From positions 1-26,887 of the IMG/VR virus record IMGVR_UViG_3300025085_000152: DNA of 26,887 nt; one strand, written 5' to 3'. Within the stretch, counting starts at the first letter, position 1, and each line of letters starts with the position of its first letter. Both the position numbers and the translations under genes were made by a program. Origin of the DNA: a virus. Shown one piece after another: positions 2,670 to 17,067 of the stretch. The notes under the pieces are model-generated. The model had not been told where the DNA came from. It was given only the letters and a program-made list of their open reading frames with translations, and did not search any database.

Positions 2670-5600
2670 CTAGATGAGATTATCTGGAGTATTTGGTATG
2701 TTAAGTCGTGGATCATTACTGGTGACATCAGAACCCTGTCTAAGGATTGCAGATGCCCTTGTAGTGACCTGATTATCAACACTCTCTTGAAGAGTTGCAT
2801 AGACCTGAATAAGGTCTCCTGTGGTCTTGTAGACGCCAGCATAAAGAATTCCATCCTGAGAGAATGTAGAACCATAGTATGGTCTTCCATTCACATATCC
2901 AGTCTGTTTAAGTCCAACCAAATCTGTGACCTGGAGGAGTTGATCGTCTGGTATTACAAGTTCAGGAACAATCACTGGTTCAAATACTGGTCTTCCCCTA
3001 AATCCAACACCAGTATTAGATGGCATTGTTATATTTGGATACTCTGTAATTCCATAGTAAGGTCTATCTGATCGCTCAACTCCATCTACAGTTCCAAAAG
3101 GTCCAAGTATTGGTTTGAGTGGGTTTCCATTTACAAAAATTAAATCATCTGGTCCATAATTAATTCCAGGAGAGGTTGGTATAACATCTTTAAGAACAAG
3201 AGTAACTGGAGGACCACCACTCAGAGGGGTTGGATATCCATTGCCTGGTTCTTCTGCAATGATGTCTGTAACAACACCAGTTCCTTCAATTACTTTGGGG
3301 CATGGTGGTGGAATAATAATTGCAGATGCACAGAGTGGATTAGTTGTCCATGGTGGAGTTGAAATTACTTTGACAACATCTTTAACAATCTTAAGAGCAA
3401 ATCCTGTTGGATTATAGTTGGCAAATATATTTTTAGGTAGTTGAATGTTTGTCAGTGTCACTCTTAATTCATATTTTCCTGCACTCAAATCAACAAACTG
3501 AGTGAATGGTTCACCACTAAAACTTTTAGATTCAGCAACTTTTTGACCATTAATAAACAATGTAGCTACATCATCTGATTGCAATTTCAATTCATATCTA
3601 CCACTTTCAAAGAAATCTACATTAGACCAAGTAAAAGTTCTTAGTCCGACAATATCTGGGTTATCAGAATTAAGTGGGGGGAGGAATGGAGATACATTAT
3701 TTTTGTTCATAAAGTCACTCCAAACATTCTTTCTAGTATCAATATACCTAAAGACTTCAGGTCCAGAATATGTTACACCATTTTGAGTTGGTGATGCCTG
3801 AACTGCTGTAGTTTTAGTTTCACCAGTAACAACATACTTACACTTATTACCATTTAAATCATAGAATTTTCCCTTACTTGCACTAATGATAATATCAGTA
3901 TAATCATTATCTGTAAGATCTTCCATCTCAACTACACCTTCACCGGCAGTTCTGAGTTTAACTTTAGCGTTTTGTCCGCTACTATTAAAAACAACGTCAT
4001 ATACTTTTCCAGATTCTAATTTTTTAGATGTGCTCTCATTTAATTGAGATCCACCATATTCTTTAGAAAATGAAAACGCACCACCAAAACTAACAGAGTT
4101 TGCATATTTTGCATCCGATGTGACTCTAAAATTGACATCAACATCAGTGGCTGCAGCAGAAGAAAGTTTTTTTGCCCAGTCTTGCGTACTAAAAATTTTC
4201 TTCTTAATTATTTTTGTATTCTCTTGTCTAAAGTTTTCGACCTCAACTTTAATTGTGTGACTTCCTTCAGTCAGTTTTACCTTTTCAATTTTAGGTGAAG
4301 AGTTTTTAAATCCTTTAAATTTATAAACTTCTCTACCATCAACTAAAATTCTTCCTGCATTATCAGCAGTTCCTTTGAATCCATAAAATCCATCATAAGG
4401 AATTTCAAGTGGCCATGTATTGGAATAAGTAACTCCTCCACCACCATCACTATTAAGAGTGCTGAGTGGAGGTAGAGGTGACAATGCAAATCTATTAGTA
4501 AATCTACTCCATGCAGGATGAGTTACAGGCCACCATTTACTTGATCCACCAGGAAATCTTGTAGTCCAAATTGGATTTTTAGGACATCTTCCTTCACCAA
4601 CAGGAATAGGTGATTCTGGAATTGGAGGTAGAGGTGCATCAATTGTTAATGCAGCACCCATCGGATTCTCATTCCAAGATTTTGGAGAAATTCTTTCAAC
4701 CTCTGCAGAATCTAATTGAACATTAATAGCAAGTGCCATCGGATTAATGCCCTTTACCGATGAAGGTTGTTGATTCTTTATTTTGATGATAGAAAGTTCA
4801 CCATTTCTATCAAATCCATTGCCAATATTATCATCATACCCAATAGAGTTTCCATTATTTTGTATTCTAGATCCTGTACCAGATGAAGATCCAATAGTCT
4901 GTATAAGATACTCTCTCCCTGCCTCGAATGTATCAGACCCAGTAATTGTTTCTCTTTCTTTATATCCACTCCCAGATCTACTTCTAGATAGAAGAACATA
5001 ATCATTTGGAGGAAGACCAATTTTAACTTTAGATGCAAAAATTCCAGAAGTTCTAAAGTTGTCATCAACCTTTAAACGAAAACCAATTTCTGCTGATCCA
5101 GATCCATCAACTTTGAGATAGTTTTTACCATCGCGATTTACAAATCGTGCAGTAATCCTATTCGACTTTGAATTACCATCACCATCAAATGCAAATCTAC
5201 CTCCAGGTTTCTGATACAATTCTGCTATGATTTTATATTTTCCTTTCTTTAAAAATTTTACATAGGTGGTCTTTCCAGTTCCTTTATTAGAATCACCAAC
5301 AAATCCATTCTTTTCAATTTCAACTCTGTCACCACCTTTAATGAAGGACAACTTCACCCGGTCGTCAACTTCAACATCAATCTTATAATTGCCATCTGCT
5401 GGAACATTAACATCATTCCAGCGAATTCTATGTGTTCCGGAATATGGATTATCATTTAATGATTGTCTAGTATTAAATGGACATACCCCAAAGTCATTAA
5501 TGAACCCACCACGACCATAAACATTTGTTCTCCAAAGTTTTCTATCTGCCTTGTTGATATAATCTATCGTATTAAAGATTGTATCTGAAGAAGATGTTAC

Positions 5601-10384: not shown

Positions 10385-13108
10385 CTATGTCGCATAAAGA
10401 ATATCTGTTTGATTGACGCCAGCACCCATAGGAATAAACACAGGTACTGATGATGATTGTTCCTGTTGCATGGCGCTAACAGGAAGTTGATTTTGATTTA
10501 TAATGACAGTTGATGCACCACCTTGTTCATATGATGCATATGCTTCTAATACCTTTAAAGCTCCTGCACCATCTGCAGCATTTAATGCAGCAAGGAATCC
10601 TGGATACTTCATTTTGATTGATGTATAAGAATCATTATCTAAAACAAATTCCTGACCTTCTTCACCCAGTACATATGGTCCCATTCCTTTTGTGGGTCCA
10701 CCTGATTTCATAAATCCTTTAATTCTATTACGCATCTCATCACCACCACTTCCATACTTATCACCTTTCTTCATAATATCTAAATCCCAACGCTCAAAAG
10801 GAGCAATCGAACCTTTTGCTAATTTTTCTTTTTCTGGTTGAACTCTACTATCACCTCTACCAAATAAACCATAATTTGTGGTAGCATTAACTCCATCCAA
10901 ATTAGATCCTGCCTCACCATGAGTTAAAACTTTATTTAAATTAATATCACTAGCAGACCATCCCCATCCCTTCGCAATACGTGCTCCCTCTTTTGCCATT
11001 GCAACTTTCTGCTTCTCTGTTGGCCACTGATTTATATCAGGATTAGCAGCAAGTGACAATCCAACAGAATTAGTATTTCTACCTTCTGTATGCCCAGAAC
11101 GTTGAGTATATTCAGTTTTTCTATGCATTGTACCATCACCAGTGAATACTGTATGGTAGGGTCCAGCAGTACTATTATAATTTCCAGCAGTCCAATGAAG
11201 ATAGATTGCATTTCCACGTTTGCCAGTTTCTCCAGATGCATTTCCCGTCCGTGATACTGATTTGGGTTCACCTACACGAGGTTCTGTTCCACCACTACCA
11301 GTGGTTTTAATGTCTTTATTCTTATTCTCATCATTATCTGATGCTTTAGTATCTCCAAATGCAGTTCCACCTGATCCAAAAATAGCAGGTAAGAATGATG
11401 CTGCAGCATGGGGTATTAATTTAGTAATTATTTTAAGTGGATCAAATAATATACTGAGATCTGGCATCTTTCCAACTTTTCCATCTTTATCTTTATCAAG
11501 GAATGGGAATATTCCTGCCATTGCTTTTTGAATAGCATCAAACGGTAGAAAGTTTGGAACATCAACTGTTGGGAAGTCCTTAAAGAATCTACCAAATCCT
11601 TCCTTAAAGAAGTTTACAATAAGACCACCAATATCGAGAGCAGTCTTCAGTGCAGTCATAAACTTCTTGCCTGCATTTGCAACTCCCTCTTTCCCTTCGA
11701 AAAGTAAAGAGTACATCATATCACCGACGAGAACACCTATTGTTTCGCCAAGGATTGTTCCAATCACAGGAATTGGAATAAATGATCCAAGTAATCCACC
11801 AAGAGCAGCACCTATTCCTTTAAATACTGCTTGCCCCATTGGTTCCCCTGAAAGCAATGATGCAACAGCAACAATTAGAGGACCCATTACAGGTATTTTG
11901 CCAAAAGTTTTTGAGACTAACTTGACTCCTTGTTTGCCAAAAAGTTTTAATCCAACTCGTTTACCTATCTTTTGTGATCCACCTTTCCTAATACTACTTC
12001 CTTTATCGGTGCCACCAAGAGATCCTGTTTGAGGTTTAGAAACTATCTTCTTATTATCAATTGCTTTCTTTACAGAAGCATTTGCACTCTTTGCTGCTGC
12101 TAGATTAGTCTTTCCGTTTTTAATTCCCTTTTCATAAGCCTGTTCGTATAATCCTCTAGCAGCAGTTCCATGTCTTCTTTGTATATTTCTTGCATTGCCA
12201 CGAGGATCTAATCGAGATCCTGGTTTTCTAATTAAAGGTTTGGTTGGTTTTGCCCCTGGTTTTGCTCCAGGTTTTACCCCTGGTTTTGCTCCAGGTTTTG
12301 CTCCAGGTTTTGAACCAGGTCTTGCTCCAAGTCTTGCGGCAAGACTGCCAACAATTATTGTTGCATTAAGGAGATTACCTAATGAACCTATTAGTTCATT
12401 AAATCTTCCTACTGCTTCATCACCACGATTATTTTTTAACCAATCTTTTGAACCATCAATTGCATCCTGTCCCCATTTTAGGAAAGTTCCTAATCCATCT
12501 ATAACTCCAATGATTAATTTTACAGTAGTATCAAGCCCACTATTAATTGCTAATATAATTCCTTCTAATTTTTCTGGACCAAGATCAATCAGTTTCTGTA
12601 AAATAAATCCAGTGATGATACTAGTGACAAATTGTTTTATCCTATCAAAGAAACTCAACTTTGGAGTAGATAATCCCTTTTCTTTTTTTTCTTCCTTAGT
12701 TTTTTTCTTCTCTAATTTACCTTCTTTTTCATCACGAATACTTTTTTTTCTATTTTTAGTCTCAACATTTGCAAGTGCTTTTTCTTCTGCAAGAGTTCCC
12801 TTCAGTAACTTATCAATCTCAACAACTTTTTTATAAATTGTGACAAGTATACCATCAGATCCAACACTAGTAGTTTTAGTATCTGATGCCTTTATTACAG
12901 ATGCTGGAATTAAAGTTGTCTTTGGTCTTATTGATAGGGCACCACTCTTCTTACCCTCTTGCTTCTGTTGTGCTGATCCTCCACTAACAGATTTTTTTTG
13001 CTTCTTATCACCACGATTCATCACTTTTTTTGCCATAGCCTTACCACTAGACTTGGCTATTTGTCCACCCACTGCTCTTGCTGCTCCTCCTAGTAGTGCT
13101 AATGCCAT
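10385..13108 (-). CDS. Tape-measure-like protein with amidase domain (907 aa)
   Basis: The N-terminal third is basic, with a charged KKK/EKK-rich stretch followed by helical hydrophobic segments (about 150-260, and again 405-480 with glycine-rich GAALGGLLGSFIPIPVIGT). Seven GxKP units sit near residues 261-290. Residues about 630-780 form an N-acetylmuramoyl-L-alanine amidase (Amidase_2/PGRP type): YLHWTAG (first zinc His), GRNTNSVGLSL, LTHGE (second His) and RWDLD (Asp ligand). It then ends with GEEGQEFVLDND, a C-terminal pattern common in tape measure proteins. Such proteins set tail length and are ejected first, so a cell-wall amidase would open the host peptidoglycan. It follows the 742-aa gene by 6 bp. 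Alternative: a hub protein rather than a true tape measure. The catalytic domain is a confident call. Confidence 0.7.
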   Translation of the reverse strand: MALALLGGAARAVGGQIAKSSGKAMAKKVMNRGDKKQKKSVSGGSAQQKQEGKKSGALSIRPKTTLIPASVIKASDTKTTSVGSDGILVTIYKKVVEIDKLLKGTLAEEKALANVETKNRKKSIRDEKEGKLEKKKTKEEKKEKGLSTPKLSFFDRIKQFVTSIITGFILQKLIDLGPEKLEGIILAINSGLDTTVKLIIGVIDGLGTFLKWGQDAIDGSKDWLKNNRGDEAVGRFNELIGSLGNLLNATIIVGSLAARLGARPGSKPGAKPGAKPGVKPGAKPGAKPTKPLIRKPGSRLDPRGNARNIQRRHGTAARGLYEQAYEKGIKNGKTNLAAAKSANASVKKAIDNKKIVSKPQTGSLGGTDKGSSIRKGGSQKIGKRVGLKLFGKQGVKLVSKTFGKIPVMGPLIVAVASLLSGEPMGQAVFKGIGAALGGLLGSFIPIPVIGTILGETIGVLVGDMMYSLLFEGKEGVANAGKKFMTALKTALDIGGLIVNFFKEGFGRFFKDFPTVDVPNFLPFDAIQKAMAGIFPFLDKDKDGKVGKMPDLSILFDPLKIITKLIPHAAASFLPAIFGSGGTAFGDTKASDNDENKNKDIKTTGSGGTEPRVGEPKSVSRTGNASGETGKRGNAIYLHWTAGNYNSTAGPYHTVFTGDGTMHRKTEYTQRSGHTEGRNTNSVGLSLAANPDINQWPTEKQKVAMAKEGARIAKGWGWSASDINLNKVLTHGEAGSNLDGVNATTNYGLFGRGDSRVQPEKEKLAKGSIAPFERWDLDIMKKGDKYGSGGDEMRNRIKGFMKSGGPTKGMGPYVLGEEGQEFVLDNDSYTSIKMKYPGFLAALNAADGAGALKVLEAYASYEQGGASTVIINQNQLPVSAMQQEQSSSVPVFIPMGAGVNQTDILYAT
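12246..12329 (-). repeat. Seven 12-bp coding repeats (GxKP)
   Basis: Seven tandem 12-bp units, consensus GGTTTTGCTCCA on the plus strand, encode GARP, GSKP, GAKP, GAKP, GVKP, GAKP and GAKP. This is a flexible, basic linker in the 907-aa protein and a likely spot for slippage. Confidence 0.85.
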
Positions 13109-13114
13109 ATCTTA

Positions 13115-15343
13115 TTACACCGGTATCCCTAGAACTAAACATTTAGTTGAGTCTTTAGGTGGTGATGGTATAGTAGCATTAACGTTCGCACCAGAATCTA
13201 ATTTTGGCACTTCCTGATTGCTATCACCAGAGGATTGACTACTATCCAAGACAGAAACTTTTGGTGTTTGTTTAACTGGTGGCGGTGGAGGTGATTTTGG
13301 TGCTGTTTTTGATCCTATAGTTGCACTGGATGTGCTGGATGAAGACGAAGGACCAATAGTTGCCAATTTCGAAAGTGTTAAAAGTCCTTCAAAACCACCT
13401 CCACCACTTTTATTTTCATTGGTTTCACTATTAGAACTAATACTGGAAGAACCGCGATATGTAGATGCAGTTGTGCCAGCAAGAGTTACAGAAGGTCCAC
13501 CAGTCCCAATAAACTTTTTATAGTAAGATGGAAGTGGTGTTGGTGCCGGATCAGTTTTTCCTACTTGTTCTTTATAATGATAGAAGTTGCCCCCATTTGA
13601 GAATTTTACATCACCGGCACCCATATTTCCATATTGACTTGTTCCTTTAAAGTCAGTTCTGCCTTTCAGCATTTTCATTGCTTCTACAATTCTTGCCTGT
13701 CCATCAGCAGATGCAAATTTTTTTGCTAACTCTTCATCATCATATGCTTTACCAGTATATACTGCCTCAAATTGACCTGCTTGAGATCCAACTGCTTTTA
13801 CCGTATTTGGCCATGCAGGATCAGCAACTCTATTCAAAACTGCTGCAGCAACTCCGTACTCATCATCAGTTCCCCTCTGTGCCTCTGCACTAACAATATA
13901 TGCTAAGTCTCTAAAATCTTGTCCCTTAAGATTTTTTAAACTTCCTCCACTACCTTTTTTTGGTTTTTCTGGTTTAGCAGTAGAACGTGGTTCTGTGTCT
14001 GGTATGACAGATGGCATTGGACCTAAAATACTTCCACCTCCCTTGGCATAAGTGGTGCCATCTTTAATCATTGGACGATTTGTTCCACCACCCATAGCAT
14101 TCATTGATGCTAAAGTGCCCACACCATATTCTTTTACTGCACCTTTACTCATCACAAACTCACCAGGAGTAAGCATTGCTGGAACAGTATCACTATTACC
14201 TGACCCAGGAACTTTTCCTCCACCAGCATATCTTGCAGTCTTACCAGATTCTAAAAATTCAATTTGATCATCAATTTCTAAACCAACTCCTTGCATCTTT
14301 TCAAAAAGACTTAAGTTTTTTTTCTGCTCTTTGAGTTTTGTAATTTTTTCTTCTTTAGTTCCAGGTGCTTCTTCAGTTTTTCTTTCTTGCTCATCAACTG
14401 TTCCTGGCAATAATTTGGGGACAACAGCACCAGTAACAAATAAACCAGCACCAGCAATTGCAGCAGCAACAAGAGGATTTGATGCTGCCAATCTTAATAT
14501 TGTTGCTGCAATCCTTGGAATAAATCTTGCAACCAGTGCAATTAATCCAGTTATAACACCACCAAAACCTGTTGAAAATGCAAGGAATGCTCCCAATATA
14601 CCAGGCCATGTTACTTCCAAAAATTTACCAATTGCTTCAAGTTTTCCTTCATTTTTAGGGTCACTTATCCAAGTAACTATTGCTTGAAGAAGTTTTCCTA
14701 TTAAGATTGTTCCAATAAATTTAAGAATACGACTTAACAATCCCTCTACTGGTTTAAGGATTTTACTAGCAGCTTTTGCTAGTCCTTTAAATATACCACT
14801 CTCAAGTTTATCTTCTTTTCCCTTTCTTTTTTTCTTTTCTAATTGTCTTCTTTCTGTGTTTGCTATCTTCTTCTTTTGGTTCTGATTTTCTTTTAATGTA
14901 CCGAGAATTGAGGTTACACCTGCTAAAATTTTCTCTAATATACTCTGATCTCCTTCTCCATCACCAATAGTTTTTTTAATAGAAGAACCTACCTTAGTTT
15001 TTTTTGGAACTATTGGCGTACCTCTACCAGTTCCTGGAAGTGCTTTTTGATTAGAACGAGCACGAAGAGATGGTGTGTTCTTTTGAAACGAGTCTGCTGA
15101 TATTTTTGTCTTCTTTACTTTAAATGTACTTTGTGTATCTTTTTTTATTCTTTTAAATTCATCAGTGAGAATCTCAGTCTCTTCTGATGACAATTTGCTG
15201 CTAGACATTCTACCAGCCATCATCTTCTCTTTAAGAAGAGAAATATAATCTTCGCGATCTAAGTCGGCAGTAAAGTCTAACCCAAGCAACTCTGCTATCT
15301 GTGGATCTATACCAGTGTCAGTTTGAGTTGCCCTAGATGCCAT
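13115..15343 (-). CDS. Tape-measure-like protein with SleB-type hydrolase domain (742 aa)
   Basis: The N-terminal 200 residues are charged and helical. Residues about 205-310 are strongly hydrophobic, with segments such as ILKFIGTILIGKLLQAIVTW and AAIAGAGLFVTGAVVPKLL, as in tape measure proteins. Near residue 395 is the SDTVPAMLTPGEFVMSKGAV block that recurs in tape measure C-termini. Residues about 480-590 match a cell wall hydrolase of the SleB family (Hydrolase_2): LAYIVSAEAQRG contains the expected catalytic Glu, followed by AAAVLNRVADPAWPNTV and AGQFEAV. The tail is Ser- and Pro-rich. Its first codons overlap the 56-aa ORF by 11 bp, and that ORF follows gp26. The order chaperone-like genes then tape measure matches tail modules of many phages. 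Confidence 0.7.
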   Translation of the reverse strand: MASRATQTDTGIDPQIAELLGLDFTADLDREDYISLLKEKMMAGRMSSSKLSSEETEILTDEFKRIKKDTQSTFKVKKTKISADSFQKNTPSLRARSNQKALPGTGRGTPIVPKKTKVGSSIKKTIGDGEGDQSILEKILAGVTSILGTLKENQNQKKKIANTERRQLEKKKRKGKEDKLESGIFKGLAKAASKILKPVEGLLSRILKFIGTILIGKLLQAIVTWISDPKNEGKLEAIGKFLEVTWPGILGAFLAFSTGFGGVITGLIALVARFIPRIAATILRLAASNPLVAAAIAGAGLFVTGAVVPKLLPGTVDEQERKTEEAPGTKEEKITKLKEQKKNLSLFEKMQGVGLEIDDQIEFLESGKTARYAGGGKVPGSGNSDTVPAMLTPGEFVMSKGAVKEYGVGTLASMNAMGGGTNRPMIKDGTTYAKGGGSILGPMPSVIPDTEPRSTAKPEKPKKGSGGSLKNLKGQDFRDLAYIVSAEAQRGTDDEYGVAAAVLNRVADPAWPNTVKAVGSQAGQFEAVYTGKAYDDEELAKKFASADGQARIVEAMKMLKGRTDFKGTSQYGNMGAGDVKFSNGGNFYHYKEQVGKTDPAPTPLPSYYKKFIGTGGPSVTLAGTTASTYRGSSSISSNSETNENKSGGGGFEGLLTLSKLATIGPSSSSSTSSATIGSKTAPKSPPPPPVKQTPKVSVLDSSQSSGDSNQEVPKLDSGANVNATIPSPPKDSTKCLVLGIPV

Positions 15344-15503
15344 TCGCTTGCTGTTGTTTTAGTTTTTCTTCCTCAAGATGCTGCTCCAATAACGAAACAT
15401 AAATGTCTCGTTCCCATGGTATCATATTTTCAATCTCAGTTAATGAGTATTTATGATACTGCATCAAGGCAAAGTTTAATTTAAAATAACTAACAAGACT
15501 CAT
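15333..15503 (-). CDS. Small tail assembly protein, possible gp26 frameshift extension (56 aa)
   Basis: A 56-codon ORF starts MSLVSYFKLNFALMQYHKYS and contains TEIENMIPWERDIYVSLLEQ, ending in a Glu- and Gln-rich helix. A hydrophobic, LPWER-like helix followed by a charged tail is typical of the C-terminal part of tail assembly chaperones, and a small gene at this position is sometimes called gp51, which I cannot confirm by sequence. The ATG at 15503 has no good ribosome site. The frame is open upstream through the end of gp26, in the -1 register, to a TTTTTTC slip site. It could therefore be made as a 300-aa gp26 fusion, alone, or both. It overlaps the following gene by 11 bp. Confidence 0.75.
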   Translation of the reverse strand: MSLVSYFKLNFALMQYHKYSLTEIENMIPWERDIYVSLLEQHLEEEKLKQQQANGI

Positions 15504-15514
15504 ATGTACCAGGG

Positions 15515-16234
15515 CTATGCGAAAAAACTTGCTAGTCCTTCCAATACAACTTCACTTTCAACTTTTGTATTTGGATTTGTCACTTTAATTTTATGTGACA
15601 ACTTCGGCATAGTCTCAAAGAATGTTTCAATTGACTTGAACTGAGATGAATTCATTTGATCTAAGAAATCTTTAAGTTCTTTCTTAGTGCAATCATCTGC
15701 TGCCCATACATCATCTTCAGAATAAATTTTATCAACACAAGATGCAATCAAATCAAATGATTGGTCCATTACATTTTTATCTTCAAAGTCAAAATTATTT
15801 TTAATAAACTGATCAAGAGATGGATACTTCATCTCCATCATCAAGGCGTCATCAATTTTAATTTGTCTAGTATGATCATCATTTGTTTGAACACGAATTT
15901 CATCAAGGTCAATAGTTACAGGCACCTCTGTAGTCTCATCGTCAGGACAAATAATATTTACTTCAATGTTTTCACCAACAGATTTTCCTCTAATATTAAG
16001 AAACAAAAATTCAATATCAAATGTAGGAAGTGCTTCAACTTTGATTCCTTTTGTTTGAATACAATTCTTGATAACAGATTTGATTGCATTAGTGATTTGT
16101 TTTGTATCTTCACTTTCTAATGCAAGAACAAGAAGTTTCTCTTCCTTAACTAAGAAAGGTCTAAACTTAATTGTTTCTCCTGTTGATGGCAATTCAAGTT
16201 CATATATTGGTGTAGCAATCTTTGGTAAAGGCAT
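15515..16234 (-). CDS. 26: Baseplate hub assembly protein gp26
   Basis: The 239-aa product matches the T4 gp26 family (T4 baseplate protein): it begins MPLPKIATPIYELELPSTG, with IKFRPFLVKEEKLLVLALES, the family's most characteristic block, followed by an acidic helical C-terminal half. T4 gp26 is 208 aa. In T4 it is needed for the central hub, and this family behaves more like a tail assembly chaperone than a lasting virion part in recent structural views. An AGGA ribosome site precedes the ATG at 16234 and a late motif lies upstream. The last codons contain a -1 slippery heptamer, and the next ORF is open in that register. Identity as gp26 is firm; the chaperone role is inferred. Confidence 0.85.
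   Translation of the reverse strand: MPLPKIATPIYELELPSTGETIKFRPFLVKEEKLLVLALESEDTKQITNAIKSVIKNCIQTKGIKVEALPTFDIEFLFLNIRGKSVGENIEVNIICPDDETTEVPVTIDLDEIRVQTNDDHTRQIKIDDALMMEMKYPSLDQFIKNNFDFEDKNVMDQSFDLIASCVDKIYSEDDVWAADDCTKKELKDFLDQMNSSQFKSIETFFETMPKLSHKIKVTNPNTKVESEVVLEGLASFFA
15521..15527 (-). promoter_or_regulatory. Candidate programmed -1 frameshift site
   Basis: In the gp26 frame the minus strand reads T TTT TTC, a canonical X XXY YYZ heptamer, one codon (GCA) before the TAG stop. A GGAAGGA Shine-Dalgarno-like sequence ends 8 bases upstream, comparable to the stimulator of E. coli dnaX frameshifting. The -1 frame remains open for 62 more codons, through the 56-aa ORF. Confidence 0.6.
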
Positions 16235-16263: not shown

Positions 16264-16271
16264 TATTTATT
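16264..16271 (-). promoter_or_regulatory. T4-type late promoter motif
   Basis: AATAAATA in the context CATAATAAATAATC on the minus strand lies 29 bp upstream of the gp26 ATG and overlaps the stop codon of the gp54-like gene. It is nearly the same as the motif at 7106. Confidence 0.6.
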
Positions 16272-17067
16272 ATGTTATGTTGAATGCGGATTTAAGCAAA
16301 TCATCAGCACCAGCTTTAAGAAAGTTTGCAGCACTATTTAAAATTGAATTAGATCCGCCAAATAATCCAGAACCATCAAATGCATCATCAAGTGCTGTAG
16401 GTCCAGTTTGAATATATCTAATATATGACATAGAAACAGTACACTTCAATAAATCATTACCACTATAAGATACTGGCATTGATGCAACACTTAAAGGAAA
16501 TGCCCTATAAAATTCGTAAGTTAAAACTGATTTATAATCTCTTTCAAATTTTAAAATCTTAAGTCCTTGATCTGCCATGTATGTGTCTGGATAGGATGCT
16601 TTATAATGATACTGTTTTGATTTTGGAGAACTTTTTGTATTTACTACAGGACCAATACCACCAGAAAATGGATCATCGCTTTCATTCATAATACCTTTCA
16701 TCCAAGTTTCAAAAAATAAAATGGGAAGATACTTATCTGCATCAACATAAAAAGTAAAATCAACACTATCATCAAACATTCTACGATATGCGTGCTTCTC
16801 TGTCACACCTGTTCTATCATTATTAATATCCATCGTTGTCAATCTGGAACCTGGCAAAGAACTATCTGTGCAAAGTAAGTTTAACTTTCTTTGATCCTGC
16901 CCCAAAACTTTTTTCAATTGATCATTCAATTTTCCACTATTGGGTAGAGGTATTTCAACAGCAAAATATGATGTTAATGATGGTCTTAAGAGATTAGCCT
17001 TAATCTCATCAACATTTACTCTTTTTGCTTGATCTTTATTAGACTGATTATTGGCGGACTTTGCCAT
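16270..17067 (-). CDS. 54: Baseplate tail tube initiator, gp54-like
   Basis: A 265-aa protein with the layout of tail tube fold proteins. LLRPSLTSYFAVEIPLP starts the first sheet, SSLPGSRLTTMDIN and the following VDFTFYVDADKYLPILFFETWM resemble the tube and initiator family loops, and FPLSVASMPVSYSGNDLLKCTVSMSYIRY provides the C-terminal strands. T4 gp54 (320 aa) starts tube polymerisation on the baseplate beside gp48, and gp48 is encoded 840 bp away on the other strand. It could instead be a second tube protein related to gp19, so the number is given with reserve. The gene is divergent from gp4, with 31 bp between starts, and no strong ribosome site is visible before its ATG. Confidence 0.6.
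   Translation of the reverse strand: MAKSANNQSNKDQAKRVNVDEIKANLLRPSLTSYFAVEIPLPNSGKLNDQLKKVLGQDQRKLNLLCTDSSLPGSRLTTMDINNDRTGVTEKHAYRRMFDDSVDFTFYVDADKYLPILFFETWMKGIMNESDDPFSGGIGPVVNTKSSPKSKQYHYKASYPDTYMADQGLKILKFERDYKSVLTYEFYRAFPLSVASMPVSYSGNDLLKCTVSMSYIRYIQTGPTALDDAFDGSGLFGGSNSILNSAANFLKAGADDLLKSAFNIT

Follow-up and report, generated by a model that had tools for sequence, protein, structure and literature searches.

The locus raises the question of whether a gp26 gene and the short open reading frame (ORF) behind it, which lies in the -1 frame, are two genes or one. The DNA comes from a marine T4-like virus (IMGVR_UViG_3300025085_000152, positions 1-26,887), whose record is a 26.9-kb fragment; this whole stretch of 26,887 nucleotides is the window analysed here, and all features discussed lie on its minus strand. 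It is very probable that the two frames form one gene, in which a programmed -1 ribosomal frameshift makes a tail assembly chaperone pair of the G/GT type. The properties computed here are the slippery site, its conservation, a coding constraint on the -1 frame, a selection of codons in a Shine-Dalgarno (SD)-like element and the homology of the fusion to T4 gp51.

In the mechanism that we infer for the slip, its rate and the role of its products, ribosomes would pause near the end of gp26, and the SD-like element would bind the 16S tail. The two tRNA-Phe on UUU UUC would slip back by one base on U UUU UUC to UUU UUU, and the slipped ribosomes would pass the UAG and add 62 residues. The outcome would be an abundant short product, gp26 (G-like), and a rarer long product, gp26-gp51 (GT-like). 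Both forms would chaperone the tape measure protein in the assembly of tail and baseplate hub and would not be kept in the virion.

Gene order and the role of gp26

The gp26 gene (15515-16234; 239 aa), the candidate short tail assembly chaperone (G or TAC-N), starts with an ATG that has an AGGA 4 nt ahead of it. In the profile search, its product was placed in the T4 gp26/PF12322 family with 255.7 bits against a curated cut-off of 24.5 (PF12322, 4.8e-76; phrog_150, 1.3e-81). PF12322 matches once in the 26.9-kb fragment, and no second full-length gp51 was found there. Just upstream of gp26 lies the gene of a tail tube-like protein (16270-17067; phrog_45, 7e-36; PF23849). The region from 10385 to 15343 encodes, one directly after the other, two large putative tape-measure-like proteins with a Hydrolase_2 and an Amidase_2 domain, respectively. 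The first (13115-15343; 742 aa; Hydrolase_2) is a putative tape measure protein according to its position, its resemblance and weak profile matches. The second (10385-13108; 907 aa; Amidase_2) is a putative tape measure or tail protein that, apart from its profile matches, is placed by position only. The preliminary description of the sequence had called both genes tape-measure-like, with which their length, hydrophobic stretches, muralytic domains and position agree, while their identity as tape measures stays putative; the Pfam model of the T4 tape measure matches neither. In HTVC008M, a gene a short distance downstream of gp51 has matches to tape measure families (8e-12), and a nearby long gene has weaker ones in phiM7 (1.8e-5) and Vibrio 6E35.1a (1.1e-6).

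The gp26 gene and its -1 frame thus sit between a tail-tube gene and putative tape-measure genes, which is the position of G/GT, and the short and long forms share their N-terminal part according to phrog_150 and the comparison with T4 gp51. The AlphaFold2 model of gp26, for which only the window and the fetched viral contigs entered the alignment, reached a pLDDT of 86.7. Its best PDB match by probability, and the sole one above 0.8, is the HK97 tail assembly chaperone 2ob9_A (probability 0.85, TM 0.55 on the target), but with a non-significant E-value of 0.86, so that the predicted fold weakly resembles that chaperone. The gp26 sequence itself gave no meaningful match when compared with solved structures.

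Another possibility is that the fusion is made, and that gp26 and gp26-51 are structural components of the baseplate hub instead of chaperones of the tape measure. This would fit the common annotation as baseplate hub subunit and the genetic studies, cited in PMC3004832, in favor of gp26 and gp28 being part of the hub. However, that article itself gives T4 gp26 and gp51 as hub assembly chaperones and describes gp51 as an essential protein whose function is unknown and which does not occur in the particle. The gene order of tail tube, G/GT and tape measure also speaks against a structural role, as does the HK97 chaperone being the best fold match by probability, despite its E-value. A structural role is therefore considered improbable. 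The proposal in the preliminary description, with gp26 as the G part and the 56-aa frame as the T part of a G/GT pair, is supported by phrog_150, T4 gp51, gene order and conservation.

The slippery site and the -1 frame

The 3' end of gp26 reads AGT TTT TTC GCA TAG, and the minus strand from 15560 to 15501 reads ...GTTGTATTGGAAGGACTAGCAAGTTTTTTCGCATAGCCCTGGTACATATG. The slippery heptamer T TTT TTC (15521-15527) lies in the gp26 frame, a single codon (GCA) ahead of the stop TAG (15515-15517) that the proposed slip would bypass. The SD-like GGAAGGA (15536-15542) lies 8 nt 5' of the heptamer. Past the slip, the -1 frame (15333-15520) is open for 62 codons, RIALVHM...NGI, followed by a stop; it consists of RIALVH and then the 56-aa ORF (15333-15503) that an annotator would call from its own ATG (15503-15501), before which there is no Shine-Dalgarno sequence. 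All these features, including the lack of a good ribosome site, had been named in the preliminary description and were recovered to the base.

Homologues from viral contigs and isolates were selected solely by their similarity to gp26, which resulted in 120 sequences after dereplication; a Vibrio gp26 used as a seed yielded no viral contigs. A loss of the heptamer and of the -1 register in close relatives was sought, but none was found. The analysed locus and its 80 nearest relatives all carry T TTT TTC one codon ahead of the stop, and T TTT TTN is present in the gp26 phase in 120/120 dereplicated homologues, with C (92), T (25) or G (3) as the last base. The gap between heptamer and stop is zero to two codons in 119 of the 120. 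Among distant isolates, T TTT TTC occurs in Aeh1, Vibrio 6E35.1a, Mendera, Cronobacter S13, OLIVR5 and S-N03, T TTT TTT in HTVC008M, phiM7 and pf16, and T TTT TTG in phiM9. The in-phase heptamer is conserved beyond the need for its amino acids: other Phe-Phe pairs in the same gp26 genes are coded as TTCTTT (74), TTTTTT (24) and TTCTTC (6), and TTTTTC was counted 0 times. A chance origin is excluded because the site is kept in all 120 homologues, and a sequencing error was rejected since 120 independent copies carry the heptamer.

In three homologues (L159, L160 and L162), the slip site T TTT TTT is found eight sense codons upstream of the gp26 stop, which gives a short form with extra residues. 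Two tested outliers, which were left out of the 120-sequence set, are without T TTT TTN. Serratia phage Kevin (L090, Ackermannviridae; 3565-3620) has G GTT TTC before the stop, presumably the same heptamer as the T7 gene 10 slip site, and Vibrio phage K351 (L089; 3540-3600) has A CTT TTC. The -1 frame is nonetheless open through a gp51-like tail in both.

Past the heptamer, the -1 frame is open in 120/120 homologues, ending within the contig at 58-70 codons in 118 and running off the contig in two. The residues after the slip match phrog_634 (gp51, 'baseplate hub assembly catalyst'; 1.1e-29). They also match phrog_150 at positions 232-281, exactly at the point at which the gp26 match ends. Since phrog_150 takes up the tail right after gp26, this family profile already joins both parts. 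By sequence comparison, the 56-aa ORF is a gp51 homologue reduced to its C-terminal tail.

The -1 frame is under coding constraint from the slip onwards, and thus upstream of the ORF's ATG. In 75 close dereplicated sequences, third-position-like variability moves from the gp26 frame to the -1 frame at the slip, and the mean entropies by -1 codon position between the gp26 stop and this ATG are 0.83, 0.36 and 1.02, whereby the codon statistics, here and below, treat related sequences as independent. This constraint bears on an alternative in which gp51 is a separate short gene, translated by re-initiation at its own ATG 11 bases past the gp26 stop (translational coupling), with the T-run as a by-product of a conserved Phe-Phe. 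Such a gene would agree with the ATG found shortly past the stop in most close relatives and with the separate gp51 entries in database records. However, L041, L059 and L062 do not have this ATG, L049 has a TTG in its place, an early start is missing in many lineages, and no ATG occurs within the first 16 codons of the -1 frame in 22 of the 120 homologues. The mean anti-SD energy across 96 homologues is -1.1 kcal/mol before the gp51 ATG versus -4.0 before gp26. The coding of Phe-Phe as TTT TTC at the slip and never elsewhere in gp26, and T4 gp51 being one full-length chain that matches the fusion, also argue against re-initiation. A separate gp51 start, with an ATG that is neither conserved nor preceded by an SD and with coding constraint upstream of it, was therefore rejected, and re-initiation is regarded as very unlikely.

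Elements flanking the slippery site

Upstream of the heptamer, Glu is encoded by GAG in 78/103 cases compared to 32 % elsewhere (Fisher 9e-19; 6e-9 when compared with other Glu-Gly pairs), and Gly by GGG in 30/118 compared to 42/753 elsewhere (Fisher 4e-10), again with related sequences counted as independent. Anti-SD pairing at the slip amounts to -6.9 kcal/mol versus -5.9 kcal/mol for the synonymous expectation (Wilcoxon 1.4e-7). Five control positions showed no comparable strengthening, and at one of them the difference ran the other way. This supports that the upstream Glu-Gly codons are chosen to strengthen the SD-like element, which is partly fixed by the conserved Glu-Gly peptide. The element is absent in S-RSM4 and phiM7. 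A fusion by slippage of RNA polymerase on the T-run instead of ribosomal slippage would be favored by the homopolymer, which reaches 8 T in HTVC008M-like relatives, but there is hardly any chance of it, given that the run has only 6 T here and in most relatives, which is short for transcriptional slippage, that it is held in the exact X XXY YYZ phase and that codon choice strengthens the SD element at the distance of a ribosomal stimulator.

Downstream of the site at which ribosomes would slip, a hairpin position about ten bases past the heptamer (15497-15510) overlaps the gp51 ATG and carries the stem GGTCC/GGACC in relatives. It pairs in 85.6 % of cells, compared to 78.9 % in shuffles and 10-53 % in slid versions, and double changes occur in all five pairs across relatives. 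When the tree was taken into account, co-change above expectation was limited to the pair at offsets 19 and 26, and the hairpin of the analysed virus is weak, with an A-A mismatch and two G-U pairs. A strong downstream hairpin as a general feature is thus not upheld except for one pair, and the hairpin is proposed only tentatively as a new detail of the recoding. The gp51 frame and the putative tape measure gene overlap at 15333-15343, where the ATG of the latter falls on the last gp51 codons and has little Shine-Dalgarno sequence; such overlaps are common in relatives, and translational coupling of the tape measure to the long form is possible. A more far-reaching and rather doubtful proposal is a three-part recoding signal that would combine the SD-like element, U UUU UUC and a covarying hairpin, GGTCC-ATAT-GGACC, with the gp51 AUG in its loop and stem. 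This hairpin would promote the slip and hide the AUG from independent initiation, and the overlapping start would tie the synthesis of the tape measure to slipped ribosomes.

T4 gp51, annotation and known systems

T4 gp26 (208 aa) matches only the short part of phrog_150, whereas the match of T4 gp51 (249 aa) extends over positions 13-280 of 282 and includes the tail. We also built a profile of the T tail, which matches each of the five T4-type gp51 tested (3e-7 to 7e-13) but none of the gp26. T4 gp51 thus corresponds to the complete fusion and T4 gp26 to the short form alone, which means that the pair is encoded by two genes in T4. These lie on opposite strands, and T4 gp26 ends in GLKEFF and three further residues, coded with GAG TTC TTT, so that the slip site is gone. 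The simplest reading would be that the frameshift was lost in T4 after a duplication. Related phages appear to make the pair either by frameshift or from two genes, and the ratio of short to long form can be tested in T4 against a frameshifting relative.

The annotation of gp51 appears to be affected by a wide error, as the examined records either give it as a gene of its own, with start positions that vary, or do not have it. In Aeh1, Cronobacter S13, ACG-2014b and S-CAM1, gp51 is unannotated yet present in the -1 frame after gp26. It was reported that cyanophage gp51 has about 20 % of the usual length and that gp51 is missing in Aeh1 (PMC3037559). The former is due to the first ~200 residues being gp26, reached by the frameshift, and Aeh1 is not without gp51, because it is unannotated in the -1 frame.

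Among known systems, T4 gp26 and gp51 are direct homologues: the gp26 described here is in PF12322, and the profile of the fusion extends across T4 gp51 including the tail. They differ in that the short and long forms are separate paralogous genes on opposite strands without a slip site. In the lambda G/GT system, as here, one gene before the tape measure gene has a -1 slip near the end of its short ORF, and a small C-terminal addition without a good start of its own results in a short and a long product. Lambda slips at G GGA AAG, while U UUU UUN and an SD-like element are found here, in a T4-type myovirus. This tail assembly chaperone frameshift and its relatives were reportedly described by Xu, Hendrix and Duda in 2004. 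The family searches gave no indication of a relationship to lambda gpG at the sequence level. In E. coli dnaX, a -1 frameshift makes tau and gamma; its homopolymeric heptamer has an SD-like stimulator about 10 nt upstream and is followed by a hairpin. The stimulator, the heptamer and the position of the hairpin are shared with the locus, but dnaX is an unrelated gene, its shifted product is the short one, and the hairpin is weak in the analysed virus.

Another parallel in phages is the chaperone of Pakpunavirus Adele and of the Vandenendeviridae and Andersonviridae (PMC12846349). Its short form ends with a T-rich motif (GTTTTT) at which a -1 slip takes place, and the C-terminal part is annotated as a separate hypothetical gene; family and slip motif are different. 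In a passage of the same article, Vladimirov, Gautam and Davidson (2022, Virology 566:9-15) are credited with poly-T slippery sequences in TAC-N genes of T4-like phages. That paper reportedly named the T4-like tail assembly chaperone genes, although the mechanism emphasised in its title is not frameshifting. The core finding has thus probably been published already in kind. For T4-like Klebsiella phages, a paper of 2026 lists mass-spectrometry peptides 'that suggest frameshifts' in a supplementary table (PMC13119998). The 2022 identification and the assignment of the 56-aa ORF to gp51 both go beyond the preliminary description. What is added to these systems is that the 56-aa frame is gp51, that the site is near-universal in the sampled homologues, the codon choice in the SD-like element and the two-gene version in T4. 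The signal is very strongly conserved, but it belongs to a mode of tail building that is well known from long-tailed phages.
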